DNA from: Microbacterium sulfonylureivorans
Lineage (GTDB): Bacteria > Actinomycetota > Actinomycetes > Actinomycetales > Microbacteriaceae
DNA length: 64,000 nucleotides
Reading direction: 5' to 3'
Assembly (NCBI RefSeq): GCF_003999995.1
Contig: NZ_RJAD01000001.1
Coordinates: 806,001 to 870,000 of the forward strand
The notes beneath the pieces are model-generated. The model was given only the letters and a program-made list of their open reading frames with translations, ran no database searches and was not told the DNA's origin. Made by a program: the position numbers and the translations under genes. How positions within the stretch are numbered: position 1 is the first letter of the stretch; every line of letters starts with the position of its first letter. Of the stretch, positions 28,102-56,974 are shown in pieces.

Positions 28102-29043
28102 TCAGCTCTTCACCGATCCGGCGAGGACGCCTCGCACCAGCAGCCTCGACGAGGCGACGAACACGATCAGGATCGGCAGCGCGACGATGAGACCCGCGAG
28201 TGCGATCTCGGGCTGCCGGATCGGGAGGATGCTCGCACCGAGGCCGGGGTTGAGCGCCGGCGTCGCGCTGAAGAGCACGCCGAGCCCGACGGGCAGCGTC
28301 AGCACTTCACCCGAGTTGACCATCACGTAGGGCAGGAAGTAGTTCACCCATGCGCCCGTGAAGCTGAAGAATGCGAGCATTCCGAGAAGGCCCTTCGAGA
28401 GGGGCAGCGCGACGCGCCAGAAGGTGGAGAACTCGCCGCATCCATCGATGCGGGCCGCCTCGTACAGCTCCTTCGGGATCGACGTCGCGAAGTAGATGTA
28501 GGCGAGGAAGACGCCGAACGGATAGAACGAGCTGGTCAGGATGATCGCCCAGGGCGTGTTGTAGATGCCGATCGCCGTCACCTCGATGAACAGCGGCAGC
28601 ACGAGCGCGACAGGGGGCACGATCATCGCGATGAGCGTCGTCATGAGCAGTGCCCGGCGGAACGGCAGCGGTGCGGTGGCGAGCGCGTAGCCCGCGAGCA
28701 TCGCCGTCGCGCACGAGAGGAAGACGATCGTCGCGGTGTACCAGACGGAGTTCCACACCCAGGTGAGGAGCCGTCCGTCCTGGAACAGCATGAGGTTGTT
28801 CCACGCGATCACGTACTGATCGAACGAGCCGAAAGCGAACGGGCTCAGCGAGGTCAGTTCCGCCGCCGTCTTGGACGGCGCGAGGATGAGCCAGAGCATC
28901 GGGATGATGCTCACCACGGCGAATCCGAGCAGGATCGCCCACGTGAAGATGCGGCCGGGGGCGCGGCGGATGCTGATCCCTCGCGTCCGCTCCGGCGTGC
29001 TGCGCCCTGTGACGGTGCGCAGCGTCATCGTCGAGGTGGTCAT
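28102..29043 (-). CDS. Sugar ABC transporter permease (CUT1, MalG-like)
   Basis: A 313-residue inner-membrane permease with six helices. The EAA loop, which docks to the ATPase, is at YEAARIDGCGEFSTFWRVALP (read as EAARIDG...LP, ~200). The N-terminal ~30 residues are basic and cytoplasmic. It overlaps the MalF-like gene by 4 nt (ATGA). The operon has no ATPase gene; a shared MsmK-type ATPase elsewhere is expected. Confidence 0.87.
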   Translation of the reverse strand: MTTSTMTLRTVTGRSTPERTRGISIRRAPGRIFTWAILLGFAVVSIIPMLWLILAPSKTAAELTSLSPFAFGSFDQYVIAWNNLMLFQDGRLLTWVWNSVWYTATIVFLSCATAMLAGYALATAPLPFRRALLMTTLIAMIVPPVALVLPLFIEVTAIGIYNTPWAIILTSSFYPFGVFLAYIYFATSIPKELYEAARIDGCGEFSTFWRVALPLSKGLLGMLAFFSFTGAWVNYFLPYVMVNSGEVLTLPVGLGVLFSATPALNPGLGASILPIRQPEIALAGLIVALPILIVFVASSRLLVRGVLAGSVKS

Positions 29044-29987
29044 ATCGCGCTCCCTGCCTGCATGGCGGCCCGTCGGGCTTCCTTCTTGGGTTTGGTCTTC
29101 GCCGAACGCGCCTCCTCGAAGAAGTCGGTCCGGAAGATCGCGATGAGTGCCGCGATGATGCAGACGACGAGGAGCATGAGCGACAGCGCCGCCGATGCAC
29201 CGAGGTTGGCCGATTCGAAGGCGAACGAGTAGCTGAGCTGATTGAGCGACCAGTTGTCGGCGAGTCCCGGATAGACGGTGGAGGAGATCAGGTACGGCTC
29301 GACGAAGATCTGGAGGCCGGCGGCGAACGTCAGGATCGCCATGTAGATGAGGTAGCGACGGATGAGCGGCAGCTTGATCTTCAGACCGATCTGCCAGCTG
29401 CTGGCGCCGTCGATGCGCGCCGCTTCGAGGATGTCGTCGGGGATGGACTGGAGCGAGCCGTACTGCACGATGATCCAGTTGCCCGCTCCGGTGAAGAAGG
29501 CCATGAGCACGAAGATCCACACGAGGTTGCCGGTGTTCCAGATCTGGCTGCCCTCCGTGATGCCGAGCGCATGCAGCAGCGGCGCGAACGGGCTGTAGGT
29601 CGGCTCGAGCATGAAGTACCACACGAGGATCGCGACGGCGCCCGAGATGGACGCGGGGACGATGTACGCGGCGCGGAGCGAGACGGTCCAGCGAGCGCGG
29701 ACGGCGTCGAGGAGCAGCGACATGAACGCCACCACGACCACCATCAGGGGCACGTAGATCACGAGGAACGTGGCGACGTTGGTGAGAGCCGGGAGGAACC
29801 GGAAGTCCTGGAGCACCAGGAGGTAGTTCTGGAAGCCGCCCGCCGGGTTCGCGAGCGACGGCTTGAGGGCGGTGAAGAACGCCAGCACGACCGGAACGAG
29901 CCCGAATGCGATGAGGAGGATGAAGTACGGGGCGAACATGAGCGCCCCCGAGAGGGCCCCCATCCGCCGGATTCTGGAGCGCGTCAT
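29040..29987 (-). CDS. Sugar ABC transporter permease (CUT1, MalF-like)
   Basis: A 315-residue permease with six membrane helices (first ~15-36) and EAA loop LEAARIDGASSWQIGLKIKLP (EAARIDGA...LP, ~195). The C-terminal tail is basic (AKTKPKKEARR). It starts 27 nt after a perfect hairpin that separates it from the solute-binding protein gene, consistent with lower expression of the permeases. Confidence 0.87.
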   Translation of the reverse strand: MTRSRIRRMGALSGALMFAPYFILLIAFGLVPVVLAFFTALKPSLANPAGGFQNYLLVLQDFRFLPALTNVATFLVIYVPLMVVVVAFMSLLLDAVRARWTVSLRAAYIVPASISGAVAILVWYFMLEPTYSPFAPLLHALGITEGSQIWNTGNLVWIFVLMAFFTGAGNWIIVQYGSLQSIPDDILEAARIDGASSWQIGLKIKLPLIRRYLIYMAILTFAAGLQIFVEPYLISSTVYPGLADNWSLNQLSYSFAFESANLGASAALSLMLLVVCIIAALIAIFRTDFFEEARSAKTKPKKEARRAAMQAGSAI

Positions 29988-30065: not shown

Positions 30066-31358
30066 TTACTCCTCGACCACCTTGTAGCCCGAGCCCGGTG
30101 CGAGCTGGATCAGCGACTCCTGGAAGGCCACGACCGCGTCAGCGATCGGGGCTCCCGCGTTGATCTCGGTCTGGAGCACGGCACCGATCTGCGCCTGGTT
30201 GGCGTAGCGGACCGGGCGCTCGGTCGGGTTGATCAGCGTCGCCTGCTCGACGAGCGCCGGCACGATGTCGGACGCGTAGTACTCGTCACCGCTGATGCGC
30301 TCGGCCCAGGCCTCGAAGGCCGGACCCGAGCCGGGGAACGTCACAGATGCCGCCATCACCTCGACGTCGGTCGAGAGGAAGGTCGCTGCCTCGGCGGCCG
30401 CCTCAGGGAACTTCGCGTGCGACGAGACGACCCAGATGCCGCCGCCCCACTCGCCCGAGTACGCCTTGTCGTTGCCGTCCCAGATGGGCATCGGCGCCGC
30501 GGCGACGTGTCCGGCCGGGATCGCCCACGAGCTCTCGGGCTTGAGCACGAACTCGCCGAACCACGACGGGCCGAGGGTCATGACGACCTTGCCCTTCTGA
30601 GCGACGTCGGCGAGGAAGCCGGCGTCGAAGGACGAACGGGTGTCGAGCACCTTGGCGTCGACGAGCGGCTGGACGAGCTCCGACACGCGCGTGCACTCGA
30701 CGGCTTCGGGGGCGATGCGCACCGTCGACTGGTCGAGGGTCTCGGCCATCGGGCAGCCGCTGGGCCACAGGTAGCTGGAGTAGAAGTTCTGGTCGCCGAT
30801 CGCTCCGGCGACGTAGCCGGTGCCCTCGAGCTTCATCGCCTCGGTCGCGAACTCGTCCATCGTCGTCGGCACGCTGAGGCCGAGCTCCTCCATGAGCGGG
30901 GCGTCGTACCAGAGCACGCTCTGGGCGAGGTCGTTCTTGAGGCAGTAGAACTTGTCGTCGATGAGGCACCAGTCGTTGGCGCCGTTGTAGGCCTCGAACA
31001 CGGCCGGGTCGACCAGGTCGGTCAGATCGGCCGCGTAGCCGTTGGACGGGTCGGCCCATGCCGCCACGTCGTTGGGCTGCGCGAAGACCACATCGGGCCA
31101 GCCGCTGCCGGTCGTGTTGAAGAGCGCGATCTTCGTCGGGAGATCGGCGACGTCGACGACCTCGATCGTGACGTCGACCTCGCCCTTGACGGCCTCTTTG
31201 TACGCCTTCGCGGCCGGTTCGCGGACGGAGTCGGTCCACACCAGGACCTCGGGCGTGGCACCCGGGTCGGTGGTGGCGTCCGGGCCACCGGACGGGGCGC
31301 AGCCGGTGACCCCGAGGGCCACGACGGCGGCCGTCAGAAGTGCAAGACGTTTGTTCAT
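30066..31358 (-). CDS. Sugar ABC transporter solute-binding lipoprotein
   Basis: A 430-residue CUT1 binding protein. The signal peptide ends in the lipobox VTGC (Cys20: MNKRLALLTAAVVALGVTGC), so it is a lipoprotein anchored outside the membrane. The family-1 pattern of two alpha/beta lobes is seen, with a cysteine-rich patch (NDWCLIDDKFYCLKND, LWPSGCPM, VECTR) that is unusual and may form disulfides. Its operon with two permeases and two sugar-acid enzymes suggests an oligo- or monosaccharide (acid) ligand. A TCCTATA-type tandem site lies ~85 bp upstream. Confidence 0.87.
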   Translation of the reverse strand: MNKRLALLTAAVVALGVTGCAPSGGPDATTDPGATPEVLVWTDSVREPAAKAYKEAVKGEVDVTIEVVDVADLPTKIALFNTTGSGWPDVVFAQPNDVAAWADPSNGYAADLTDLVDPAVFEAYNGANDWCLIDDKFYCLKNDLAQSVLWYDAPLMEELGLSVPTTMDEFATEAMKLEGTGYVAGAIGDQNFYSSYLWPSGCPMAETLDQSTVRIAPEAVECTRVSELVQPLVDAKVLDTRSSFDAGFLADVAQKGKVVMTLGPSWFGEFVLKPESSWAIPAGHVAAAPMPIWDGNDKAYSGEWGGGIWVVSSHAKFPEAAAEAATFLSTDVEVMAASVTFPGSGPAFEAWAERISGDEYYASDIVPALVEQATLINPTERPVRYANQAQIGAVLQTEINAGAPIADAVVAFQESLIQLAPGSGYKVVEE

Positions 31359-31442: not shown

Positions 31443-31456
31443 TCCTATATCCTATT
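31443..31456. promoter_or_regulatory. Tandem TCCTATA/TCCTATT site (site A)
   Basis: Two adjacent heptamers, TCCTATA then TCCTATT, upstream of the binding-protein gene. The same heptamer recurs at 32.6, 39.8, 39.9, 40.7 and 42.9 kb. Confidence 0.6.
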
Positions 31457-31459
31457 TCG

Positions 31460-31473
31460 GTAAATCCGTTTAC
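31460..31473. promoter_or_regulatory. GTAAA-N4-TTTAC dyad, candidate LacI site
   Basis: GTAAATCCGTTTAC, with minus-strand AAACGGATTTACC, resembles AAACGGTTTACC at 39829-39840. It overlaps the end of the dehydratase gene and is close to site A. Confidence 0.4.
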
Positions 31474-32576
31474 TTCTCATCTTCGGGGCTGCGGATTCCG
31501 ATGTCCAGGAGTTCCTGGGGAGCGCCGCCGACCGCCCACTGCGACTCCCACCCGACCCCCGGCGCGGTGAGGGCGTGAACGTCGCCGTTCGCGTCGACTT
31601 CGGCCGGGCGCACGACCTGCGGCGAGTCGACGAGCGCCTCGTAGTAGGTGGTGTTCTTGATCGCCATGCACAGGTGCGTGTTCACCAGGCCGCCGCCGTG
31701 GACCTCCGCACGCAGGTGGAACGAATCGGCCAGATGGGCGATGCGCATCGCACCTGTGACTCCCCCACGCAGCAGCGAGCCGGCCCTCACGGCGGACGCG
31801 CAGCCGCTGGCGATGTAGTCGGCCGTCGCCATATGGGCGCCTTCGGCGACCTCGCACACGAGAAGCGGCACATCGACCCGCTCGGCGAGCCTCTGGTACG
31901 CCGTGACGCTGAACTCCTTCATCGGCTCCTCGTACCAGAGGTAGTCCGCCTCGCTCAGCGCACGGCCGAGATACGTCGCATCGAGCAGGTCGAAGGCGGC
32001 CGATCCGTCGTACATCAGCGGAACGTCGGGGCCGACGTGCTCGCGCAGGGCGAGGCTGAGCTCGGCGTCACGCCGCGCGTCCCCCCACGCGTGCAGCTTG
32101 ATCGCGGGAAAGCCCAGCTCGAGGCACTGATCGGCCACATCGAGGTACTCCTCGATCGACCCGAACGTGACGGTCGACGCGTAGGCGGGGATCGATGTGC
32201 GGAACGAGCCGAGCAGCTGTGCGAGCGGGAGCTTCGCGGCCTTCGCGCCGATGTCCCAGATCGCGATGTCGACGACCCCGATGATGTGCACCGGGAAGCG
32301 GTCGATGCGATCGATCTCCCACAGGCGATGCCACAGGTATTCGCGGGCCAGCGGATCCTGGCCGAGGAGCTCGGCACGCAGTCGCCGATCCACGATGTCC
32401 TGGAGGATCGCGCCGCGCAGCGTGAAGCTGAGACCGTCGATCCCCTCGTCGGTGCGGACCACGAGCCACGCGCCGTCGAGTTCCGGCTCCGAGCCGGGAA
32501 GCCCGTCTCGCCACACGAATGCGGGGCTGTAGGCGGGGATGCGGACACGAACGACCTCGACGGCGATGATCTTCAC
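31470..32576 (-). CDS. Enolase superfamily sugar-acid dehydratase (third)
   Basis: A 368-residue MR-type dehydratase. The Lys motif is KLH (FPAIKLHAWGD, ~165), metal ligands lie in LMYDGSAAFD (~193) and LWYEEPMKEF (~219), followed by LLVCEVAEGAH (~245) in place of the usual GE motif, and the catalytic His region is RAEVHGGGLVNTH (~292). It probably dehydrates a 6-deoxy or pentonic sugar acid such as L-fuconate or L-rhamnonate, given the hydrolase and dehydrogenase genes nearby (inference). It heads the minus-strand ABC unit and shares a palindromic promoter with the divergent FAH gene. Confidence 0.8.
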   Translation of the reverse strand: MKIIAVEVVRVRIPAYSPAFVWRDGLPGSEPELDGAWLVVRTDEGIDGLSFTLRGAILQDIVDRRLRAELLGQDPLAREYLWHRLWEIDRIDRFPVHIIGVVDIAIWDIGAKAAKLPLAQLLGSFRTSIPAYASTVTFGSIEEYLDVADQCLELGFPAIKLHAWGDARRDAELSLALREHVGPDVPLMYDGSAAFDLLDATYLGRALSEADYLWYEEPMKEFSVTAYQRLAERVDVPLLVCEVAEGAHMATADYIASGCASAVRAGSLLRGGVTGAMRIAHLADSFHLRAEVHGGGLVNTHLCMAIKNTTYYEALVDSPQVVRPAEVDANGDVHALTAPGVGWESQWAVGGAPQELLDIGIRSPEDEK

Positions 32577-32578
32577 CG

Positions 32579-32593
32579 TCCTATAGTATAGGA
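32579..32593. promoter_or_regulatory. Palindromic TCCTATA-G-TATAGGA operator (site B)
   Basis: A perfect 15-bp palindrome between divergent genes, 2 bp from one start and 45 bp from the other. It also contains -10-like TATAGT and TATACT on the two strands, so it can be operator and promoter at once. Confidence 0.7.
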
Positions 32594-32638: not shown

Positions 32639-33499
32639 ATGCGTCTCATGCGAATTGGCGCCGCCGGTGCCGAGAAGCCGGCCGTCGCGGTCGGCGACGA
32701 CGGCTACGTCGACGTCTCCGATGTCGTCGATGACTTCGACGAGGCGTTCTTCGGCAGCGGTCGCATCGACGAGCTGGAGGCGCTCGCCGACGAGCGCGCA
32801 GCCGCCGGCCAGGTGCGTCGGCTCGCCGACGAGCGCATCGGCTCCCCCATCGCCCGTCCCCACCAGATCCTGTGCATCGGCCTCAACTACAGCGACCACG
32901 CCGCAGAGACCGGCGCGGAGGTCCCCGCCGAGCCGATCCTCTTCACGAAGTCGCCGAACACGATGATCGGCCCGAACGACGACGTGCGCATCCCCCGCGG
33001 ATCGTCCAAGACCGATTGGGAGGTCGAGCTCGGCATCGTCATCGGACGGCGAGCGAGCTACCTCGACTCGGAGGAAGAGGCCCGCGATGCCGTCGCCGGC
33101 TTCGTGCTGGTCAACGACGTCAGCGAGCGCGAGTTCCAGATCGAGCGCGGCGGCCAGTGGTCCAAGGGCAAGTCCGCCGAGACGTTCAACCCCACCGGCC
33201 CGTGGCTGGCCACGCCCGACGAGATCGACGATGTCCTCGACCTGGGCATGTGGCTGGACGTGAACGGTCAGCGGCGACAGACCGGGTCCACCTCCACCAT
33301 GATCTTCGATCCGTACTTCATCGTGCGATACCTGAGCCGGTTCCTCGTGCTCGAGCCGGGCGACCTGATCAACACCGGGACTCCGCCCGGCGTCGGGCTG
33401 GGCATGAAGCCCCCCGTCTACCTCGCCCCCGGCGACGTGATGGAGCTCGGCATCCAGGGTCTCGGCGTGCAGCGCCAGACCGTCATCGCGCCGCGCTGA
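32639..33499 (+). CDS. Fumarylacetoacetate hydrolase-family diketo-acid hydrolase
   Basis: A 286-residue FAH-fold enzyme. It shows HQILCIGLNYSDHA (~75), WEVELGIVIG with a metal-binding Glu (~125), FVLVNDVSERE (metal Asp, ~155), GKSAETFNPTGPWLA (~178) and the end INTGTPPGVGLGM (~245). The GKSAETFNPTGPWL block is typical of 2,4-diketo-3-deoxy-L-fuconate/rhamnonate hydrolases, which split the diketo acid into pyruvate and lactate. Start ATG 32639 follows GAGGGGAA; an ATG three codons later is possible. It is divergent from the dehydratase and ends in a strong convergent terminator. Confidence 0.83.
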   Translation: MRLMRIGAAGAEKPAVAVGDDGYVDVSDVVDDFDEAFFGSGRIDELEALADERAAAGQVRRLADERIGSPIARPHQILCIGLNYSDHAAETGAEVPAEPILFTKSPNTMIGPNDDVRIPRGSSKTDWEVELGIVIGRRASYLDSEEEARDAVAGFVLVNDVSEREFQIERGGQWSKGKSAETFNPTGPWLATPDEIDDVLDLGMWLDVNGQRRQTGSTSTMIFDPYFIVRYLSRFLVLEPGDLINTGTPPGVGLGMKPPVYLAPGDVMELGIQGLGVQRQTVIAPR

Positions 33500-33511: not shown

Positions 33512-33547
33512 CGACGGCGCCCCCGAGTCAGCGCGGGGGCGCCGTCG
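33512..33547. terminator. Bidirectional terminator between convergent genes
   Basis: Perfect 14-bp arms CGACGGCGCCCCCG and CGGGGGCGCCGTCG around an 8-nt loop. It overlaps the last codons of the LacI gene and follows the FAH gene by 12 nt. Confidence 0.78.
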
Positions 33548-34538
33548 ACGCTCGGATCGTCAGCGCGAACGGCGGTTCGCTGACGACGTGGTGCACCACA
33601 TCGCCGTCGACTCCCTGATCGAGCAGGAGGGCCACCGCCGTCGCGCCGAGCTCGGCGAGCGGTGCTTTCACGGTCGTGATCGGCGGCCAGGTCGCGTCCG
33701 CGTACCAGACGTCGTGCAGGGCGACCAGCGATACGTCGTCGGGCACCCGGAACCCGCGCTTGTGCAGCTCCGCGAGCACCCCGAGTGCGGCATCCACGTT
33801 CGCGACCACCAGTGCCGTCGGCAACTCGCCGCGCTCGACGAGGACCTCTGCGGCTCGGCGTCCGTCCGCGCCGGAGAAGCCGAGCTCGAGAAGCAGATCG
33901 CCGGGAACGTCGAGGCCCCGCTCGGCCATCGCCGCGCGGAACCCCTCCCGCCGGCGATCGGCGGTCGGTGTGCCCGCCGTACCGCCGATGAAGCCGATGG
34001 AGCGATGGCCGAGATCGTGCAGGTGCGCCACCGCGGGACGCATGCTCAGCGCGTCATCGAGCACGACTGTCGTGATCGGCCCGGTGTCCGCGGAGTTGAT
34101 GAGCACGATCGGAAGCGGTTCGCCGATCATCTCGAGGATCCGCTCCGGCGCGACTCCGTCCGGCAGCTGGAGGATCACACCGTCGACGCGCCCCGAGGCG
34201 ACGACGCTCCGGAGCCACGTCTCGTCCTCTTGGAGTCGCGCGGCGCGGGCGAGCACGAGGTTGACGCTCCGCTCCCCCGCCGCCGACTCCACACCCCGCG
34301 CGAGCTCCGCGACGACGGCGCTGGTCACCTCGGGCAGGACCAGCGCGAGGGCGCTCGCCCGTGAGGTGCGCAGCGCGCGCGCCGCGTGGCTGGGCACGTA
34401 GTTGAGGGATGCCGCCGCCTCCTCGACACGACGGCGGGTCTCGTCTCCCACTCGCAGCGTGGGATCGCGCGAGAGCACCCGGGAGACCGCGCCCACCGAG
34501 ACGCCGGCGAGCGCAGCCACGTCACGTATGTTCGCCAC
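33528..34538 (-). CDS. LacI-family regulator of the sugar-acid/CoA operon
   Basis: A 336-residue repressor. The N-terminal HTH and hinge are NIRDVAALAGVSVGAVSRVL (~3-22) and YVPSHAARALRTSRA (~50); a periplasmic-binding-protein-like ligand domain follows (VDGVILQLPDG, LVALHDVWYADATWPPIT). The GTG at 34538 shares one base with the stop of the oxidoreductase (TAGTG), so it is the last gene of a seven-gene unit and probably autoregulatory. Candidate dyads with AAACGG-TTTACC lie at 39.83 and 31.46 kb. Effector unknown; a sugar or sugar acid is likely. Confidence 0.85.
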   Translation of the reverse strand: MANIRDVAALAGVSVGAVSRVLSRDPTLRVGDETRRRVEEAAASLNYVPSHAARALRTSRASALALVLPEVTSAVVAELARGVESAAGERSVNLVLARAARLQEDETWLRSVVASGRVDGVILQLPDGVAPERILEMIGEPLPIVLINSADTGPITTVVLDDALSMRPAVAHLHDLGHRSIGFIGGTAGTPTADRRREGFRAAMAERGLDVPGDLLLELGFSGADGRRAAEVLVERGELPTALVVANVDAALGVLAELHKRGFRVPDDVSLVALHDVWYADATWPPITTVKAPLAELGATAVALLLDQGVDGDVVHHVVSEPPFALTIRASTAPPR

Positions 34539-35614
34539 TATTCGAGCCGCACCACCTGATTCGTGTCCATCGAACGGTAGAGCGCCTCCACGAGCTCCAC
34601 CGTCTTCACGTTGTCCCGCGCAGAACTCCGCGGGGTGGAGCCCGTCGCGATCGCGTCGAGCACCGAGCCCATCGTGCCGATGAATGCGTGGGGGAACCAC
34701 CGCTGGGTGACCGGGTAGGGCACCCAGCCGTCCGTCGGCAGCGAAGAGCTGAAGACCTCGAGCGTATCGGTCCGGCCGTCGGGGTAGTCGTAGAGGAGAC
34801 CCAGCGTGCCGCGGATGGCGCCGGCGACGCCGTCGATGCGGAACTCGGCCGAGTTGTCGCCACCGCGATTGACGTGGTTCACGTGCACGACGGCGGTCGC
34901 GTCGGCGAACCGGTACGAGCTCACCGTGCGGGTCTCCCCGATCGGGAACTGACCGGGAGTCCTCCCCGCCATGGCGTACACCGACGTCGGCTCACCCAGG
35001 AACCACCGGACGATGTCGTGGTAGTGGATCGAGTGCACCATGATCTCGAGTCGCTCGAGCTGCCTCGCCCACTCCCACAGCTCCCACTGCGTCGCGATGT
35101 TCACGGTGAGCGAGAACGAGGTGACCTCGCCGATCCACCCGAGCTGGACCATGCGATGCGCCGCGGCGATGCCCTCGTCGAACCGCAGCTGCTGGTTGAC
35201 GCCGGCGACGAGGCCCGCCTCCTCGGCCAGGTCCGCGAGCTCCTTCGCGATCTCGGGCGAGACCGCGAAGGGCTTCTGCGCGAGGATGTGCTTGCCCGCG
35301 GCGATCGCCGCGCGGAAGATCGCGGGCTGCTCGCTCGCCGGGACGGCGATGTCGACCACCTCGACGTCGGCGTCCGCGAGCAGTTCCTCGAGCGACCCGT
35401 AGACCCTCGGGATGCCGTGTCGTTCGGCGACGGCACGCGCACGGTCGAGGTCGACATCGGTGATCCCGACGACGCTCAGCCCCGCCAGCGCGTAGGCCGG
35501 GAGATGGGCGCCGTCGACGATGCCGCCGGCGCCGACGATCGCGATCGGCCGGCGCTGCGCTTCGGGGATCTCGAGCCGGCAGTAGTCGGAGATCTCGCGG
35601 AACTGGTCGATCAC
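34538..35614 (-). CDS. Gfo/Idh/MocA family oxidoreductase
   Basis: A 358-residue NAD(P)-dependent sugar dehydrogenase-like protein. The Rossmann start is [17 protein letters not shown] (~24), the catalytic Lys is in [10 protein letters not shown] (~108; the usual EKP reads QKP), and the substrate-side His motif is [13 protein letters not shown] (~192). It would oxidise a cyclic sugar or inositol derivative; the substrate is not readable. Start at 35614 overlaps the hot-dog gene's stop by 4 nt. Sandwiched between CoA-type enzymes and a LacI gene, it may feed the sugar-oxidation pathway of the region. Confidence 0.82.
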
Positions 35615-36147
35615 GAGGACTCCCCGGGGATCTCGAGGCGAGCGGTCGCGGCATCCCGGTACTTCACGGTCTGCAGGTGCTCGCAGTACAGCACGAGCTC
35701 CTCATCGTCGGCCCGGAAGACCTCGTACGACACCCTGATGAGACCCAGGTCGTCGTACTTCGGCGTCTTCTCGAGGAGGGTCCGCATGGCGTAGATCGTG
35801 TCGCCGAGGAACACCGGCTTGATGAAGCGGAGCCTGTCGTAGCCGTAGCTGAAGGTGTTCACGTTGTTGTGGGCGAAGAGGCCCATCCCGAACGTGAAGA
35901 CCAGCGCGCCGGGGACGAGCCGCTTGCCGAAAAGCCCCTCTTCACGAGCGAAGATGTCGTCGGCGACATAGGGGTGGAGGTCCATGAGCAGGCTGCTGAA
36001 GAGCATGCTCTCGCCCTCGGAGATCGTGCGCCGGATCGAGCGGTCGACGTCGCCGACGACGAAGTCCTCGTACAGATTGACTTCCTGGTTCCACACCGGC
36101 ACGGCGTAGCGGGCCTGCGGGTCGGTGTTCTGGTTCTTCATCCTCAT
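35611..36147 (-). CDS. MaoC-like hot-dog dehydratase/hydratase (first)
   Basis: A 178-residue MaoC-fold protein. The hot-dog hydratase pattern is visible: [23 protein letters not shown] (the D/H region of hydratase 2 is altered here) and [20 protein letters not shown], a strongly conserved second half. The family hydrates enoyl-CoA or dehydrates beta-hydroxyacyl-CoA. ATG 36147 overlaps the CoA-transferase stop (ATGA); an ATG two codons later is also possible. Two such proteins flank the CoA-transferase/amidohydrolase pair; they may act as a heterodimer (inference). Confidence 0.8.
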
Positions 36148-37325
36148 CCTGCCTTCACGATGAACTCGCGCCGCAGCGCATCGGTGTGCTCGCCCAGCCG
36201 GGGCGCGCCCGTGGGGTTCTTGATCGGCTCGCCGTCGAATCGCAGCGGCGAGCGCGTCGTGTAGATCGACACCGGATCGCCGCCGTCCAGCGCATCCCGA
36301 TCGACCCGCTGGGCCATGTCGAGCGCGGTGAAGCCTTCGTGCTGCACGAGCTCGGGGAGGCTGAAGACGGGGGCGCACCACACGTCGGCGGCATCCAGGA
36401 TCTCGAGCCAGTGCCCGGTCGTCTCAGTGGCGAGATGCGCCGCGAGGGATGCCGTGATCTCGGCCTGCGCGGTCCACCACGTGTCGGGATCGACGTACTG
36501 CTCGAGGTCGAGTCCGATCAGGCGGCCGAGGTCGGGAACCGACGTCATCGCGATGGCCAGGTACCCGTCGCTCGTCGGATACGTGCCGTACGGCGCCTGG
36601 AGGAATGCGTGGGCGGCGTTGCGGGGTCCGCGCTTGACCACCACCGACGGGTCGGTGAGATGCGCGCTGACCAGCTCGAACTGCAGGTCGAGCATGGACT
36701 CGAGCAGGCTCACGTCCACCCGGCCGCCCTCACCGGTTCGCTCGCGGCGCAGCAGCGCCGCGGTCACGCCGTGCGCGATGTGGATCGAGGTGATGATGTC
36801 CGCCAGTGCGATGCCCACCGGGATCGGGGGATCCTCCGACGACCCGTTGAGCCACGGGAGTCCCGAGATCGACTGAGCGAGGAGGTCCTGCCCGGGGCGA
36901 TCCTTCATCGGGCCCGTCGCGCCGTAGCCGGTCGCGCTGGCGTAGACGATGCCGGGGTTGATCTCGCGCACCTGCTCGTATCCGAAGCCGAGTCGCTCCA
37001 TGACGCCGGGGCGGAAGTTCTGCACGATCACGTCGGCCCGTTCGATGAGGGCGCGCACCTCGTCGCGATCGTCGGCGACCTTGAGGTCGGCGGTGAAGCT
37101 CTCCTTGTCGCGGTTGGCGATGTGGAACGAGAGCGTGTCGCCGTCGCGCTCGATACCGCCGAACGCGAGCCGTCGGCCGATGTCGCCGCCCTGGGGGCGC
37201 TCGATCTTGATCACGCGTGCGCCGAGGTCCGCCAGTCTGGTCGTCGACAGCGGGCCGGCGAGGAACTGGGTGAAGTCGAGGACCAGGATGCCGTCGAGCG
37301 GCAGGGATCGCTCGTGCGTGCTCAT
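36144..37325 (-). CDS. CaiB/BaiF class III CoA-transferase
   Basis: A 393-residue family III CoA-transferase. The start [27 protein letters not shown] and RRDGD...[11 protein letters not shown] region are typical, and the catalytic Asp sits in [15 protein letters not shown] (~143). The enzyme moves CoA between a donor acyl-CoA and an organic acid. In this operon it would activate a hydroxy or unsaturated acid for the two MaoC enzymes. It shares one base with the amidohydrolase gene upstream and 4 nt with the hot-dog gene downstream. Substrate not identifiable from sequence. Confidence 0.85.
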
Positions 37326-38185
37326 CAGAACTCCAGGCCGTAGACCGAGGCCGCCGTGCCCCAGCGGACAGCCTCCCGCTCAGCCTCGGTGCGGCCCGAG
37401 ATCACCTCGAGCTGCGCGTTCCAGACGCGCGTGAGGTCGCCGGCGAGGATGATGACAGGCCAGTCGCTGCCCAGCATCGTTCGGTCGGCCGTGAAGACCT
37501 CGAGCACGTGGTCGACGTACGGCTGCCAGTCGGCGGCGGTCCACTCGGCGCCGGACGCCGTGTTCAGGCCCGAGATCTTGATGAAGACGTTCGGGAGGGC
37601 GGCGGCGGCGCGGATCTGGGTCGCCCATGGCTCCCACGCGCCGGAGGCGATGTCGGGCTTGGCCATGTGGTCGATCACGATCTTGAGATCGGGATGCCTG
37701 CCCGCGAGCTCCGGCACGAGCTCGAGGTGCTCCGCGGTCGTGGCCACATAGTCGAGTGCGAGACCCCGGGGCGCCAGGAGCGAGATCGACTCGGCGACGT
37801 CGTCCCGGAGGATCCACCGGGGGTCTTCGTAGGTGTGGGTGAGCGCGCGCACGCCCTTGACGTACGGCGACGGCGCGTAGAGGTCGAGGGCTGCCTCGGC
37901 CTCACCGGGGCGGTCGAGCGGAACCCAGCCGACGACGCCCTTCACGCGCTCCTCGCGGGCGGCGACGCTCAGCATGTAGAACGTGTCCTCGTATGTGTCC
38001 GCCGCCTGGACGAGCACCGTGGCGCTGATGCCGACCGCGTCGGCCTCGTCCGCGATGTCCTCCGGACCGAAGTCGGCGTACAGCGGGCCGTACGCCGGCA
38101 CGATCCAGTCGTACGCTCGCTCCGACATCATCCACAGGTGCTGGTGGGTGTCGACCACTCGGGTCGCCTGGTTCGGATCGGTCAT
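37325..38185 (-). CDS. Amidohydrolase_2 family lactonase (L-fuconolactonase-like)
   Basis: A 286-residue TIM-barrel hydrolase of the COG3618 type. The metal motif is DTHQHLW (residues 12-18), the central strand is DLKIVIDHMAKPDI (~168), FIKISGL (~202), and the final Asp motif is LGSDWPV (~240). Family members open sugar lactones such as L-fucono-1,5-lactone or 4-sulfomuconolactone. With a neighbouring mutarotase, aldose dehydrogenase, dehydratase, SDR and FAH hydrolase, the lactonase step of an oxidative 6-deoxyhexose path is the best guess. It is inside an operon of CoA enzymes, which is unusual for this pathway. Confidence 0.78.
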   Translation of the reverse strand: MTDPNQATRVVDTHQHLWMMSERAYDWIVPAYGPLYADFGPEDIADEADAVGISATVLVQAADTYEDTFYMLSVAAREERVKGVVGWVPLDRPGEAEAALDLYAPSPYVKGVRALTHTYEDPRWILRDDVAESISLLAPRGLALDYVATTAEHLELVPELAGRHPDLKIVIDHMAKPDIASGAWEPWATQIRAAAALPNVFIKISGLNTASGAEWTAADWQPYVDHVLEVFTADRTMLGSDWPVIILAGDLTRVWNAQLEVISGRTEAEREAVRWGTAASVYGLEF

Positions 38186-38652
38186 CGGAGTTCTCCTTCT
38201 TGTGAGGGCGATGCGGCGACTGTTCGCCGGTCGACGATGTAGAGCTTCACCAGTGCGAGCACAGTCTCGCCGCGCTGGTTCACGACGTCGAGGCTCTCCT
38301 CGACGATCCCGGCGTCGGCGCGCTTGGCGTGATCGCGCGTGGCGACGATGGTGGCGCGCCCGCGGATCGTGTCGCCGATGAGCACGGGACGGACGAACCG
38401 CACCCGGTCGTAGCCGTAGCTCATCGCCTTCTCATTGATCTCGCCGGCGAGCATTCCGACCGCCATCGAGAGGATGAGCGTGCCGTGGGCGATCCGCTGA
38501 CCGGACGGGAGGGACTTCGCGAACTCGGCGTCGACGTGGTGGGGGTAGAAGTCGCCGGTCTGGCCGGCGTGGGCGACGATGTCGGCCTCGGTCACGGTCC
38601 GGCCGAAGCTCGTCCGCTCGGTTCCGACGACATACTCCTCGAAGTACGTCAT
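38182..38652 (-). CDS. MaoC-like hot-dog dehydratase/hydratase (second)
   Basis: A 156-residue compact MaoC protein with the full family pattern: FGRTVTEADIVAHAGQTGDFYPHHVDAEFAK (Asp and His of the hydratase 2 motif, ~22-45), GQRIAHGTLILSMAVGML (~61) and SYGYDRVRFVRPVLIGDTI (~87). It acts on a CoA-bound acid, adding or removing water. It overlaps the amidohydrolase by 4 nt and the binding-protein-like gene by 4 nt. Unlike its partner at 35.6 kb it keeps the D...H pair, so this copy is the likelier catalyst. Confidence 0.83.
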   Translation of the reverse strand: MTYFEEYVVGTERTSFGRTVTEADIVAHAGQTGDFYPHHVDAEFAKSLPSGQRIAHGTLILSMAVGMLAGEINEKAMSYGYDRVRFVRPVLIGDTIRGRATIVATRDHAKRADAGIVEESLDVVNQRGETVLALVKLYIVDRRTVAASPSQEGELR

Positions 38653-39809
38653 GCGACGGGCTCTCTCAGGTGGAGGTCCGCGAGCGCCTCGAGTCGGTCG
38701 ATGGCCCCGGGCGCGACCCGGCGCTCGACGAGGCAGTCGTGGACGATGTGCGACATCGCCAACTGCATCTCGGGCCAGCCGAGCCGGCGCGGCCGGATCC
38801 ACGCCCCTTCCAGAGTGCGCAGCGTGTTGCCGAAGAAGTTTCGGGTGAGGTCGTTGAGCGCCGCGCTCTTCCATGCTCGGAGGTTTCCCGGCTGACCCCC
38901 GCCCACCGTGTACGAGCCGACCTGGGCGCCCGCGCCGGCGAGCGTGACCGCGACCGCTGCGGCGAGCTCGGGATGCTTCGTGGCCGACGACACCGCGACG
39001 CCGGCGCCGCCGAGAGTGGCGCCGGTGGCGCGCCCGTCGTAGGACGCGATGTCGTCGTACGCCAGCTCGTGCGGCCGGAAGCCCGGACGCGAATAGTTCG
39101 TGTAGCCGTACAGCGCCACCGCGTGGCTGAAGTCGGACTCGGTCGAGAGCACCTCTGCGACATCGATCGGGTTGGCGTCCTTGCACCAGGAGGGGACGAC
39201 AGCCGCGAGTTCGATCATCGTGTCGAGAGCGACGGCCGCGGCATCACCGTCCAGGAAGCGATCGGGCTCGGCGAGCGGGGCACCCAGCTGCGCCAGCAGG
39301 GTGGCGAAGGTGCTGAAGGCGTCGACGGGCTTGTACGGCCACAGCATCCTGCCTCGACGCGCGATCTCGAACACGTCGTCCCAGTAGACGGCTGCGCCAT
39401 CGGCGAGGTCGGGCCGGAAGGCCGAGACCTGCGCGGCGGCGTCGACGGCGAGCGCCCACTGCCGACCTCGATAGAGATAGGAATCGTGCGACCCGCCGAC
39501 GCTCTCGCGCTGCAGCGTCGCCAGGGTCTCGGCGTCGAGGAGCTCGTCGAGCGGGATGATCGCATCGCTGTGGACGGCGTCGGGGACGTGCGGGTGGTCG
39601 ATCACCATGACGTCGTAATCGGAGGCGAACTCGCCGATGAGCTGGTCGCCGAAGGCCAGGAGCGACCGGGCCTCCCATTCCACACGGACACCGTGGAGCT
39701 CGGTGACGAGTTCGTCCGATGCGCGGAGGCCATCGACTCCCCGCGGGTGATCCCAGGTCATGCCCTGCAGGACGATCGGTGTCGTCTGGGCGTCTACGTT
39801 GTCACTCAT
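38649..39809 (-). CDS. Solute-binding-protein-like protein without signal peptide
   Basis: A 386-residue protein with the overall look of a family-1 sugar-binding protein: an N-terminal strand GMTWDHPRGVDGL, YDVMVIDHPHVPDA (~72), LYRGRQWALAVDAAAQVSAFRPD (~115, start of the ligand cleft) and a helical end. No signal peptide or lipobox precedes it: the ATG at 39809 begins MSDNVDAQTTP, which is polar. It is therefore predicted to stay in the cytoplasm. No permease genes are in its operon; the next gene overlaps by 4 nt. It might bind or present a substrate to the CoA enzymes, sense it, or be an enzyme. Function unknown. Confidence 0.7.
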   Translation of the reverse strand: MSDNVDAQTTPIVLQGMTWDHPRGVDGLRASDELVTELHGVRVEWEARSLLAFGDQLIGEFASDYDVMVIDHPHVPDAVHSDAIIPLDELLDAETLATLQRESVGGSHDSYLYRGRQWALAVDAAAQVSAFRPDLADGAAVYWDDVFEIARRGRMLWPYKPVDAFSTFATLLAQLGAPLAEPDRFLDGDAAAVALDTMIELAAVVPSWCKDANPIDVAEVLSTESDFSHAVALYGYTNYSRPGFRPHELAYDDIASYDGRATGATLGGAGVAVSSATKHPELAAAVAVTLAGAGAQVGSYTVGGGQPGNLRAWKSAALNDLTRNFFGNTLRTLEGAWIRPRRLGWPEMQLAMSHIVHDCLVERRVAPGAIDRLEALADLHLREPVA

Positions 39810-39818
39810 GATTCGAAA

Positions 39819-39825
39819 TCCTATA
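39819..39825. promoter_or_regulatory. TCCTATA half-site (site C1)
   Basis: One heptamer, 10 bp before the binding-protein-like gene start. On the minus strand it forms TAGGAT, which could also be the -10 box with TTGTTT 17 bp upstream. Confidence 0.5.
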
Positions 39826-39826
39826 T

Positions 39827-39840
39827 TAAAACGGTTTACC
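39827..39840. promoter_or_regulatory. TAAAACGGTTTA dyad, candidate LacI operator
   Basis: TAAAACGGTTTACC carries a near-symmetric AAAC(C)GTTT core typical of LacI operators, in the promoter of the operon whose last gene is a LacI regulator. Confidence 0.45.
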
Positions 39841-39871
39841 AAACAAGGTTTCCCGCATATTGTGCTCCGAA

Positions 39872-39885
39872 TCCTGTATCCTATT
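39872..39885. promoter_or_regulatory. Tandem TCCTGTA/TCCTATT site (site C2)
   Basis: Nearly the same 14-bp tandem as site A (TCCTATA/TCCTATT), 49 bp before the SDR gene. Confidence 0.6.
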
Positions 39886-39933: not shown

Positions 39934-40683
39934 ATGACTGACGGACTGCAGGGCTTGATCGCGGTGGTGACCGGCGCGGCTTCCGGAATCGGCCTCGCCA
40001 CCGCACGACGCCTCCACAGCGAGGGCGCGCGAGTGATCGGACTCGACCTGGTGCCCGGCGCCGTCGACACGTTCGCGACCTGGATCCGCTGCGACGTCGG
40101 CTCGGCCGAAGAGGTCGAGAAGACGTTCCGCGAGGTCGCCGACCACGTCGAGCGCATCGACATCCTGGTGAACAACGCGGGCATCGGCGCCGTGGGAGAC
40201 GTCGAGTCGGCCGTCGAGGACGACTGGGTGCGTGTCTTCAACGTCAACGTCATGGGCGTCGCGCGCGTCTCGCGGGCCGCGCTCCCCCTGCTGCGCAAGA
40301 GCTCACACGCGTCCATCGTCAACATCTGCTCGATCGCCGCGACCGTCGGACTTCCCGACCGTGCGGTCTACAGCGCCAGCAAGGGCGCGATCCAGTCGAT
40401 GACCATGGCGATGGCCGCCGACCATGCCCGTGAGGGGATCCGCGTCAACTGCGTCAATCCGGGCACTGCCGACACCCCTTGGGTGAACCGACTCCTCGAT
40501 CAGGCCGCCGACCCTGCTGCCGAGAAGGCGCGGCTCTCCGCCCGGCAGCCCATCGGGCGCCTGATCACGGCGGACGAGGTCGCATCGGCCGTCGCCTACC
40601 TCGCGAACCCGGCCCAGGCGTCCACGACGGGCATCGCTCTGGCCGTCGACGGCGGAATGAACGGGCTGCGCCTCCCCGCCTGA
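39934..40683 (+). CDS. Short-chain dehydrogenase (2-keto-3-deoxy-L-fuconate dehydrogenase-like)
   Basis: A 249-residue classical SDR. Cofactor motif TGAASGIGLATA (residues 14-25), NNAGIG (~80), the catalytic Ser in CSIAATVGLP (~129) and YSASKGAIQS (Tyr/Lys, ~147-151). The C-terminal GIALAVDGGMNG is typical. The pocket resembles 2-keto-3-deoxy-L-fuconate/rhamnonate dehydrogenases that oxidise C4 to give a 2,4-diketo acid, which the FAH gene at 32.6 kb would cleave. Divergent from the binding-protein-like operon over a 124-bp promoter region holding sites C1 and C2. Confidence 0.83.
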   Translation: MTDGLQGLIAVVTGAASGIGLATARRLHSEGARVIGLDLVPGAVDTFATWIRCDVGSAEEVEKTFREVADHVERIDILVNNAGIGAVGDVESAVEDDWVRVFNVNVMGVARVSRAALPLLRKSSHASIVNICSIAATVGLPDRAVYSASKGAIQSMTMAMAADHAREGIRVNCVNPGTADTPWVNRLLDQAADPAAEKARLSARQPIGRLITADEVASAVAYLANPAQASTTGIALAVDGGMNGLRLPA

Positions 40684-40730: not shown

Positions 40731-40798
40731 AATGCGCCAGTGTGGTAAGGCTGACCGCAGGCCCCACCGGGGCGACGAGCCTCAGGAGTGATGCGACG

Positions 40799-41563
40799 AT
40801 GACGAACAATGCAGCAGCCACCGGTGGAGTTCGCCGACCCTCCCGCTCCGTTCTGTCGGACGAGACCCACGAAGCGATCCGCGGGATGCTTCTCGATCAC
40901 AGCATCCAGCCCGGCGAGCACATCAACATCGATGCCCTCGCCCGGCAGCTCGACGTGTCGCAGACGCCGGTGCGCGAAGCCCTCGCACGCCTCGAATCCG
41001 ACGGCCTCGTCGTCAAGCGAGCGCTGCGCGGGTACAGCGCGACCGAACTCCTCACGGTCGACCAGATCGACGACCTCTTCCAGTTCCGCGCTCTGATCGA
41101 GCCCTGGTCCGCAGCCCAGGCGGCCGAGCGGCATTCCGACGAAGACGCCGCCGCGCTCTCGGCGGAGATCGAGACGGGGCGCGGCACCAGCAAGCTCGAG
41201 CTGACCGAGGCGTACGCGGCGATGGCGGAGCACGACGAGCGGTTCCACAAGCTCATCGCGCGCATGTCGGGCAGCGAGTTCGTCGAAGAGGCGTTCATCC
41301 GCACCCACTGCCACCTTCACCTCTTCCGCCTGTACCAGGCGGGTCAGGCAGAGGTGCGCGACTCCCCCGACTCCGAGTTCGTCGACACGCTGTTCAGCGC
41401 GTACTACGAGCCCGAGGGCGGATTCCTCGCCGTTCGGGAGCACGCCGCGATCGCCGACGCGGTCCTGTCCGGCCAGGCCAACGCGGCCTCGGCGCTGATG
41501 CTCGACCACATCCAGTCCTCACGCCGGCGCTTCTCGCCGACGCTGAACGCCATCGCGAGCTAG
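40799..41563 (+). CDS. GntR-FCD regulator, candidate controller of the TCCTATA regulon
   Basis: A 254-residue GntR-family regulator. The winged helix (residues ~20-85) has IQPGEHINIDALARQLDVSQTPVREALARLES, given here in two parts around its turn, and the FCD domain (~95-240) contains the metal-ligand helix EHDERFHKLIARMSGSEF. ATG 40799 follows an AGGAG patch; an upstream GTG at 40742 would add a poor N-terminus. It sits among genes that all carry TCCTATA half-sites, and has one itself, so it probably controls them. Its stop overlaps the opposite AKR stop (CTAG). Confidence 0.82.
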   Translation: MTNNAAATGGVRRPSRSVLSDETHEAIRGMLLDHSIQPGEHINIDALARQLDVSQTPVREALARLESDGLVVKRALRGYSATELLTVDQIDDLFQFRALIEPWSAAQAAERHSDEDAAALSAEIETGRGTSKLELTEAYAAMAEHDERFHKLIARMSGSEFVEEAFIRTHCHLHLFRLYQAGQAEVRDSPDSEFVDTLFSAYYEPEGGFLAVREHAAIADAVLSGQANAASALMLDHIQSSRRRFSPTLNAIAS

Positions 41564-42564
41564 GCGAACTGCGGGAGCGGGGCTGCGGCATCCAGATAGC
41601 CCTCGCTCACCAGCTCCGCCCAGAGCGCGTCCGGGACGGCCTTCTCGAACAGCGAGGCATTGCGCTCGACCTGCGCGCGCGAACGGGCGCCGAGGCAGAC
41701 GGTGGCGATCGCCGGATGCCCCCGCACGAACTGCGCAGCCGCGACCGGCAGCGTCACCCCATGGGCCTCGCAGATCTCCGCGATTCTGTTCACGCGCTCG
41801 ACGATCTCCGGGGCGGCAGGCTGGTAGCGGTAGTGCGACGCGGCGGTGGCCCGTTCGGAGGCGAGGATGCCCGAGTTGAACACGCCCGCCGCGATGACCG
41901 AGACACCGCGCTCGAGCGCGACGGGCAGCAGATCGTCGAGCGCCGGCTGGTCGAGCAGGGAGTAGCACCCTGCTGCCATGACGACGTCGAGGTCGGTGTT
42001 GCGGATGAAGTCGGCGAGCATCTCGGACTGGTTCATCCCGGCCCCATACGACCGGATCACCCCGGCCGCACGCAGTTCCTCGAGGGCGGGGAAGGCTCCG
42101 TCCATCGCCTCCCGGTAGTGATCGTCGGGATCGTGCACCAGCACGATGTCGATCCGGTCGAGCCCGGACCGGCCGAGCGAGTCCTCGATCGATCGGAGCA
42201 CGCCGTCGCGCGAGTAGTCCAGGACGCGGATGCGGTCCTTCGGCACGTCGAAGCCCTGGTCGTCCGTCTCGCCGGGAAAGGCGTCGGTGTCGACGATGAG
42301 CCGGCCGACCTTCGTCGACACGATGAACTCGTCACGTGGCCGCTCGGCGAGCGCGGCGCCGAGCCGCTCCTCGGCGAGCCCGAGGCCGTAGTGGGGCGCC
42401 GTGTCGAAATAGCGGACGCCCGCCTGCCACGCGGCATCGACCGACTCGGCCGCGTCGGCGGCCGACACGGCGCGGTAGAGATTGCCCAGCGCCGCGACTC
42501 CGAAGGAGTGCGATCCGACCGTCAAACCCGCTCTGCCCAGGGGCCTCATGGCCGCTCCACTCAT
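41560..42564 (-). CDS. Aldo/keto reductase (L-fucose / D-threo-aldose dehydrogenase-like)
   Basis: A 334-residue TIM-barrel AKR that oxidises a free aldose to its lactone with NAD(P)+. The tetrad is visible: RYFDTAPHYGLGLAEERLG (Asp, Tyr, ~49-56), STKVGRLI (Lys, ~78) and VLVHDPDDHY (His, ~130). The PLGNLYR-like start and FDTAPHYGLG segment match L-fucose and pyridoxal 4-dehydrogenases. ATG 42564 has GCGGAG 6 nt upstream; ATG codons at 42582 and 42549 also exist. It follows the mutarotase on the same strand (32 bp), forming a two-gene unit for the first two pathway steps. Confidence 0.82.
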   Translation of the reverse strand: MSGAAMRPLGRAGLTVGSHSFGVAALGNLYRAVSAADAAESVDAAWQAGVRYFDTAPHYGLGLAEERLGAALAERPRDEFIVSTKVGRLIVDTDAFPGETDDQGFDVPKDRIRVLDYSRDGVLRSIEDSLGRSGLDRIDIVLVHDPDDHYREAMDGAFPALEELRAAGVIRSYGAGMNQSEMLADFIRNTDLDVVMAAGCYSLLDQPALDDLLPVALERGVSVIAAGVFNSGILASERATAASHYRYQPAAPEIVERVNRIAEICEAHGVTLPVAAAQFVRGHPAIATVCLGARSRAQVERNASLFEKAVPDALWAELVSEGYLDAAAPLPQFA

Positions 42565-42596
42565 GTTGCTCCGCCCAGACATCGCCGTGCTCGCCC

Positions 42597-42920
42597 TCAG
42601 TCGAGGTGGAAGACCTCGGGGATCGCCTTCCACCACTCGCCCTCGGCACGGTCGTCGAGCGGCCGCTGCAGCGGCTTGCAGGCATCCCACCACTGCTGGG
42701 TGATCGGATCGGCGGCCATCGCGGCCATGTCGCCCTCGAAGTCGTCTCCCGCGTACTCCATGTAGGAGAACAGAAGATCGCCGTGGCGATAGATCGAGTA
42801 GTTCACGACGTTGCTGGCCGTGAGGCGCTCGAGCACTGCGGGCCACGCATCGGCGTGGAGCCGCTCGTACTCGGCGCGGTTCTCGGGCGGCAGCCCGATG
42901 ACGGAGGCGAATCGCTGCAT
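42597..42920 (-). CDS. L-rhamnose mutarotase-family protein
   Basis: A 107-residue dimeric alpha/beta-barrel mutarotase. It has the family pattern GLPPENRAEYERLHADAWP with catalytic His at ~22, NYSIYRHGDLLFSYMEY (~40-56) and the C-terminal Trp-rich QQWWDACKPLQ (~75). The family interconverts alpha and beta L-rhamnose or L-fucose pyranoses. The ATG at 42920 has AAAGGA upstream, right after an operator-like TCCTATAGGA. It is first gene of the AKR unit, and fits an L-6-deoxyhexose substrate for the whole region. Confidence 0.85.
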   Translation of the reverse strand: MQRFASVIGLPPENRAEYERLHADAWPAVLERLTASNVVNYSIYRHGDLLFSYMEYAGDDFEGDMAAMAADPITQQWWDACKPLQRPLDDRAEGEWWKAIPEVFHLD

Positions 42921-56946: not shown

Positions 56947-56974
56947 GTGTGATGCAAATCGATTTGCATCACAC
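56947..56974. promoter_or_regulatory. 28-bp perfect palindrome, main LacI operator
   Basis: Left half GTGTGATGCAAATC is followed by its exact reverse complement, with the AATCGATT core at the centre (LacI sites have a central CG). It lies 24 bp before the levansucrase start. Confidence 0.8.

Follow-up and report, generated by a model that had tools for sequence, protein, structure and literature searches.

A 64,000-nucleotide stretch of the Microbacterium sulfonylureivorans genome (contig NZ_RJAD01000001.1, positions 806,001 to 870,000; host genome, 3.79 Mb), referred to here as the window, contains a seven-gene operon in which a solute-binding protein (SBP) of a sugar-binding kind usually active outside the cell, lacking an export signal and termed cSBP here, is encoded together with a class III coenzyme A (CoA)-transferase of the CaiB family. 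The occurrence of this signal-less SBP near a CoA-transferase in five phyla suggests an undescribed intracellular breakdown of sugar acids. An earlier note on this DNA had described seven genes overlapping at every junction, and open reading frame and Pfam reading recovered all of them, on the minus strand:

38649..39809, minus strand: cSBP, a signal-less CUT1-type sugar-binding protein of 386 aa with the motif GMTWDHPRG (Pfam SBP_bac_1, sequence, predicted model)
38182..38652, minus strand: MaoC1, a hot-dog hydratase-type protein in which D34 and H39 are conserved (Pfam MaoC, alignment)
37325..38185, minus strand: amidohydrolase, a relative of L-fucono-1,5-lactonase under the curated cut-off (Pfam Amidohydro_2)
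36144..37325, minus strand: CaiB, class III CoA-transferase family (Pfam CoA_transf_3)
35611..36147, minus strand: MaoC2, a hot-dog protein that conserves D56 and H58 and has V61 where MaoC1 has H39 (Pfam MaoC, alignment)
34538..35614, minus strand: Gfo/Idh/MocA oxidoreductase, Gfo (Pfam GFO_IDH_MocA)
33528..34538, minus strand: LacI-family regulator with a GTG start (Pfam LacI/Peripla_BP_3)

Consistent with that description, the six junctions overlap by 4 nt (cSBP/MaoC1, 38649-38652), 4 nt (MaoC1/amidohydrolase, 38182-38185), 1 nt (amidohydrolase/CaiB, 37325), 4 nt (CaiB/MaoC2, 36144-36147), 4 nt (MaoC2/Gfo, 35611-35614) and 1 nt (Gfo/LacI, 34538, where the LacI GTG start lies over the Gfo stop); an alternative MaoC2 ATG two codons later would abolish the CaiB/MaoC2 overlap. 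Neighbourhoods in named genomes were taken from the best 80 of at least 584 loci, a sample biased towards relatives of the window, and the best named match among them was from a Microbacteriaceae bacterium (L003, 69% identity).

The first gene product has the full two-lobe CUT1 (SBP_bac_1) fold, as judged from its sequence and predicted model: it scores 28.0 bits against Pfam SBP_bac_1 (cut-off 26), and the model is that of an ordinary sugar-binding protein. Its N-terminus reads MSDNVDAQTTPIVLQGMTWDHPRG. The earlier note had named a missed upstream start giving a signal peptide as fatal to its proposal; the only earlier in-frame start, a TTG at 39842, adds MVNRFNIGFRI without a signal peptide, and, with residue 12 already opening the first beta strand in the model, the annotated start leaves no space for one. 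When N-termini were scored for a signal peptide or lipobox at a limit of 1.5, none of 112 distinct cSBPs passed, versus 25 of 26 secreted SBPs of neighbouring importers (a control comprising proteins of family secSBP16 above 500 bits and leaving out the f25 importer SBPs). Five limits were counted, of which 2.0 was too strict, as just 16 of the 26 secreted controls passed. Among 240 proteins, 152 fit the motif pattern and were scored, with one (P0009) passing a loose limit of 1.6; the remaining 88 were judged by eye, some being truncated at MTWDHPRG and one (P0157) carrying an unrelated N-terminal stretch. A missed start with a signal peptide was therefore rejected. Unlike its CUT1 relatives LpqY, SmoF and MalE3, cSBP has neither a signal peptide or lipobox nor a constant permease partner, the two marks of a transport role, and because this SBP homologue is signal-less, it is most likely cytoplasmic.

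Four residues, H72, D123, Q306 and R341, are retained in 99-100% of 97 cSBPs; the three sugar SBPs for which alignments were inspected have other residues at these positions and so lack H72 and D123. Such a pattern may indicate that the cleft has gained catalytic residues (the four named and perhaps H21 and R23) and that cSBP is itself an enzyme, with CaiB and a hydratase acting before or after it. SBP-type folds are at work in the cytoplasm in MqnA/MqnD and Thi5/NMT1, and enzymes such as MqnA and Thi5 would provide a precedent; these proteins, however, belong to other SBP clusters, and we know neither of a linkage of theirs to sugar clusters or CoA-transferases nor of a catalytic precedent within the CUT1 cluster. 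Given also that the predicted fold is ordinary and that every step of the pathway proposed below can be assigned to another gene, we regard an enzymatic cSBP as unlikely, if deserving of attention.

The linkage of cSBP to CaiB was examined in 88 loci, which remained from 120 genes scoring >250 bits after 8 duplicates and 24 genes with <3 kb on one side had been dropped. CaiB was found within 5 kb of cSBP in 85 of these loci; in 68 the two genes share a strand and are no more than 200 bp apart. In the remaining three, CaiB is 8-10 kb off (in L025 and L026 inside the same stretch; in L120 on the same contig), and before duplicate removal 12 of the 120 loci had no CaiB within 5 kb, 9 of those 12 being short-flanked. 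Genomes were also drawn evenly by family and phylum; at a chosen limit of E <= 1e-40, a match was present in 35 of the 199 family genomes and in 3 of the 296 drawn for the phylum, and 38 stretches were used. Each of 29 cSBP-bearing genomes contained 1 to 5 CaiB matches; where there was a single CaiB, it was placed within 1.4 kb of cSBP (7/7 genomes), and in the window's own genome, which has two of each, the distances between CaiB and cSBP are 1.4 and 3.6 kb. The linkage is thus near-obligate on the side of cSBP; CaiB also occurs without it, with at least one PF02515 match in 22 of 29 cSBP-negative genomes. A quick tree was built from 66 linked CaiBs (65 of 97 after an 85% identity filter, plus that of the window) and 20 unlinked ones hand-picked from the better-scoring matches, several of the latter being long-branched and one (L134) lying about 19 kb from a cSBP. 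Two label changes were counted on this tree versus a shuffled mean of 18.4, and none of 500 shuffles gave so low a number. Forcing the linked CaiBs into one clade yielded a likelihood higher by 4.14 than that of the free tree (p-AU 0.59), so that the sequences are compatible with a single CaiB subfamily that accompanies cSBP. Loss of the signal peptide is what might also be seen in a decaying, non-functional SBP copy riding in the operon, yet intact relatives in several phyla, the invariant residues and the retention alongside of CaiBs compatible with one clade make this extremely improbable.

Named hosts among the 112 distinct loci belonged to Actinomycetota (42), Pseudomonadota (34), Candidatus Dormiibacterota (2), Planctomycetota (1) and Bacteroidota (1), a second Bacteroidota case being a Rufibacter plasmid (L122); Roseiflexaceae, Paenibacillus and Ammoniphilus, which we take to be members of Chloroflexota and Bacillota, are known from protein matches alone. 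The window type (architecture A: cSBP, MaoC1, amidohydrolase, CaiB, MaoC2, Gfo, LacI) recurs in L083-L085 and others. In Alphaproteobacteria (A'), MaoC2, cSBP and CaiB stand together, with MaoC1 and Gfo divergent, followed by a secreted SBP, permeases and a MalK-type ATPase. Architecture B consists of CaiB, cSBP, MaoC and LacI, with an aldo/keto reductase (AKR) and further genes next, and architecture C of CaiB, cSBP, a crotonase, an FAH-type protein and an aldehyde dehydrogenase, preceded by DUF4432 and a short-chain dehydrogenase/reductase (SDR) or by a metallo-beta-lactamase fold protein and Gfo, the families of C being assigned from one or two members each. SMP-30 stands ahead of cSBP in L102 and in the paralogous locus of the window's genome (L002). 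Of the 88 loci, 67 have MaoC within 5 kb and another 17 a crotonase within 2 kb; neither is so near in 4 (L025 and L026, both with MaoC at 7.9 kb; L089; L120). Co-occurrence of the SBP with CaiB and an enoyl-CoA-hydratase-type enzyme, without which the earlier note would have given up its proposal, therefore held in several phyla. The hydratase and the lactonase-like protein vary by non-orthologous replacement, and cSBP and CaiB are the most constant parts.

Several replicons illustrate how the module can be embedded. On the Rufibacter plasmid the order is TonB/SusD, cSBP, CaiB, CaiB, a second SBP-like protein, Gfo, MaoC and RhaT, and in the other Bacteroidota locus (L080) it is MaoC, cSBP, CaiB, CaiB, amidohydrolase, RhaT and Gfo; an ABC permease was neither annotated nor detected in the flanks of either. 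A Pseudosulfitobacter plasmid (L123) carries, in one array, a secreted SBP, two permeases, two ATPases, Gfo, an isomerase, an epimerase, an SDR, CaiB, cSBP, a crotonase and FAH, and an enolase-type protein was neither annotated nor detected there. A Sinorhizobium meliloti pSymB record shows a 4-nt overlap between CaiB and cSBP; MaoC or crotonase was not found in 25 kb, and no sugar permease is adjacent to the pair. As a separate observation, CaiB/MaoC/Gfo clusters of this kind also contain a second, different SBP-like protein that is related to the secreted SBP16 family and shows no evident signal peptide (L050:6825-8198, L122:13667-14794). Nine actinobacterial loci (L014:6249-8957 and eight more) have a PEP synthase/PPDK-like gene near AKR and cSBP, identified by Pfam on L021 only, which fits a pathway yielding pyruvate.

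The CaiB of the window matches Pfam CoA_transf_3 over its full length and conserves the Asp that we take to be catalytic; MaoC1, whose closest structure is 4ffu (180.9 bits, deposited as 'oxidase'), keeps D34 and H39 in at least 93% of 80 rows, presumably the catalytic Asp/His pair of MaoC (R)-specific enoyl-CoA hydratases. MaoC2 is strongly conserved as well (47 rows, D56/H58 kept), with V61 in place of the second His, and so the two hot-dog hydratases of the earlier note are reduced to one good candidate, MaoC1, and a doubtful one. A 6-deoxy-L-hexose is hinted at as the substrate by a rhaM-family protein (Pfam, 104.6 bits; NCBIfam L-rhamnose mutarotase model, 45 against a cut-off of 99.6), by the amidohydrolase (150.7 bits against L-fucono-1,5-lactonase NF052480, curated cut-off 400), by an FAH hydrolase (341 bits against 2,4-didehydro-3-deoxy-L-rhamnonate hydrolase NF053535, curated cut-off 500), by RhaT in L080 and L122, and by a GH29 alpha-L-fucosidase, which with GH20 follows the lipoprotein SBP and permeases in the paralogous cSBP cluster of the window's genome (L086:15257-18814); as a single query, that GH29 had no match in any other locus. 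The CoA module might instead act on a non-sugar hydroxy acid, or serve as an epimerase or racemase rather than in aldonate dehydration, with cSBP binding such a compound: the class III CoA-transferase fold includes racemases, and enolase-superfamily genes are often present too, so that aldonate dehydration is perhaps already covered. The neighbours, however, are lactonase-like, sugar dehydrogenase-like and mutarotase families, RhaT and sugar importers. CaiB, moreover, scores 182-193 bits against structures of the formyl-CoA-transferase/YfdE type versus 104 bits against racemases, and its motif reads PGQD, with Gln where alpha-methylacyl-CoA racemase presumably has the catalytic His of GHD. A non-sugar or racemase function consequently appears rather unlikely.

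The operon lies in an island with the following further genes and sites:

26314..26970, minus strand: RraA-like aldolase family protein, start approximate
26949..28052, minus strand: enolase-superfamily protein 2
28102..29040, minus strand: ABC importer permease
29040..29987, minus strand: ABC importer permease
30066..31358, minus strand: lipoprotein SBP of the ABC importer, with a signal peptide (no Pfam match)
31443..31472: two TCCTATW and one TAAATCCGTTTA operator-like site, ahead of the importer operon
31470..32576, minus strand: enolase-superfamily sugar-acid dehydratase-like protein 1 (profile search)
32579..32593: TCCTATAGTATAGGA palindrome, between enolase 1 and FAH
32639..33499, plus strand: FAH-family hydrolase, 2,4-didehydro-3-deoxy-L-rhamnonate hydrolase-like (under its cut-off)
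39819..39838: TCCTATA and TAAAACGGTTTA operator-like sites, ahead of cSBP
39879..39885: TCCTATT, between cSBP and SDR
39934..40683, plus strand: SDR oxidoreductase, divergent from cSBP
40742..41563, plus strand: GntR/FCD regulator
41560..42582, minus strand: AKR, start chosen by eye
42597..42920, minus strand: rhaM-family (L-rhamnose mutarotase) protein, scoring below the cut-off of the NCBIfam equivalog

That cSBP has no permease partner, as the earlier note stated, is true of the operon alone, since a lipoprotein SBP and two ABC permeases follow downstream on the same strand. The importer's own SBP (N-terminus MNKRLALLTAAVVALGVTGCAP) is distinct from cSBP and scores 456 bits against the profile of its own family, f25, the importer SBPs of related loci. 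TCCTATW occurs 9 times in the 64 kb versus 0.84 expected, all nine sites falling within 31.4-42.95 kb and spreading over five intergenic regions, and TAAAWCSGTTTA has exact matches at 31461 and 39827 only, with three more at two mismatches; both motifs were picked after the intergenic sequences had been read, and hence these counts are not independent tests. From their placement, the cSBP operon and the importer operon have two operator-like motifs in common. These common sites, and the membership of cSBP in the fold family of importer SBPs, would suit a role for cSBP inside the cell as the importer's sensor or buffer, acting in trans-inhibition or sugar signalling; nevertheless, the most constant neighbour of cSBP is CaiB, and both RhaT-bearing Bacteroidota loci, of which one has TonB/SusD as well, lack a recognized ABC permease in their flanks, so that this role is quite improbable.

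We tentatively favor the idea that cSBP and CaiB work inside the cell as one conserved unit, running a CoA-dependent dehydration of sugar acids. After entry via an ordinary transporter, a sugar would be oxidized at C1 by an AKR-, SDR- or Gfo-type enzyme, and then opened to the aldonic acid by a lactonase-like protein, whether an amidohydrolase, SMP-30 or one with the metallo-beta-lactamase fold. CaiB would then transfer CoA to this acid, and MaoC or a crotonase would eliminate the 3-hydroxyl of the aldonyl-CoA to give 2-hydroxy-2-enoyl-CoA, the enol of a 2-keto-3-deoxy acyl-CoA. After CaiB had handed the CoA on to the next acid molecule, the free 2-keto-3-deoxy acid could be converted by FAH-type and aldolase enzymes to pyruvate and a small acid. 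As a descendant of sugar-binding proteins retained in the cytoplasm, cSBP would bind the sugar acid or its CoA ester and serve CaiB as a specificity or delivery subunit. We infer these reactions, the substrate and the role of cSBP from the signal-less full SBP fold, the CaiB linkage, the interchangeable hydratase and lactonase-like families and the operator-like sites common with the importer. A CoA cycle dehydrating an aldonic acid, on the pattern of the one that CaiB and CaiD run with carnitine, would be the simplest scheme, and the Pseudosulfitobacter array fits it, with the module between a dehydrogenase and FAH and no enolase-type protein found. The route from a sugar acid to a CoA thioester put forward in the earlier note, and a part for the SBP fold in it, are accordingly plausible predictions from gene content. 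On balance, the main suspicion of the earlier note comes out strengthened, apart from its remark on a missing transporter: the gene linkage is demonstrated and the reaction is proposed. A bolder and somewhat more doubtful form holds that a sugar-binding protein became an obligate cytoplasmic CaiB subunit, substrate-presenting or catalytic, in a general CoA-dependent sugar-acid dehydration in at least five phyla.

The pieces of this scheme are known, and their combination appears to be new. In the CaiB/CaiD carnitine cycle, a class III CoA-transferase and a crotonase-fold hydratase dehydrate a 3-hydroxy acid via a recycled CoA ester. At the level of genes, the cSBP loci resemble it in pairing a CoA-transferase with a hydratase and differ in their sugar-catabolic neighbours, their often MaoC-fold hydratase and their constant SBP-fold partner, of which we know no counterpart in the carnitine operon. 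Itaconate degradation by RipA/RipB (Ict/Ich) likewise joins a CaiB-type transferase to a MaoC hydratase; unlike the window operon, it acts on a dicarboxylic acid, and to our knowledge it has no SBP, lactonase or sugar dehydrogenases. A RipB_Ich profile match in the window was under its cut-off. The non-phosphorylating L-fucose/L-rhamnose pathway employs a dehydrogenase, a lactonase, an enolase-type dehydratase, an SDR and an FAH hydrolase. The AKR, amidohydrolase, enolase, SDR, FAH and rhaM proteins of the window resemble this route, several of them below curated cut-offs, whereas it has no known step for CaiB, the two MaoCs, Gfo or cSBP. No report joining CaiB, MaoC and a signal-less SBP was found among the open-licence papers listed by literature searches. 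Sulfofucose degradation is reported to use a lactonase and an enolase-type dehydratase (PMC12421959).

Several points weigh against a cSBP-CaiB unit for sugar-acid dehydration. Enolase-superfamily genes are also present in many loci, including the window, so that a second dehydration system appears redundant. In 23 alphaproteobacterial loci the mean identity was 61% for cSBP versus 72% for the adjacent secreted SBP; cSBP is thus not unusually constrained, and the notion that it is unusually conserved was not supported. No cSBP-CaiB fusion was found among the 8000 candidates sharing most words, the search giving six proteins of 430-607 aa, none with a CaiB Pfam label and one (P0246) apparently frameshifted. 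In the free CaiB tree, 9 linked CaiBs, mostly from crotonase-type loci, group with 15 unlinked ones, at low support and on long branches. Conservation of the operator-like motifs was not supported in five class A relatives: TCCTATW was absent from L003 and L083, occurred once each in L084 and L114 near the importer SBP start and three times in L085, and a LacI-like site was present in none of the five. The use of a sugar acid by a CaiB of this type would be read from gene context, and cSBP, most simply an intracellular acid binder acting with CaiB, has a ligand, activity and location that are all predictions.

If the scheme is true, many entries named 'extracellular solute-binding protein' or 'multiple sugar transport system substrate-binding protein' are misnamed cytoplasmic metabolic proteins, and CoA activation, usually tied to fatty, aromatic and dicarboxylic acids, enters sugar catabolism as a new way of dehydration beside the enolase-type and IlvD/EDD-type dehydratases. 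The overlapping two-gene CaiB–cSBP unit on the Sinorhizobium meliloti plasmid is small enough for direct testing.

Elsewhere in the window, a perfect 18-bp palindrome, ATGCAAATCGATTTGCAT, stands at 56952-56969, directly ahead of an open reading frame at 56998, and a wax ester synthase/diacylglycerol acyltransferase gene (WS_DGAT) is located at 45154-46452.

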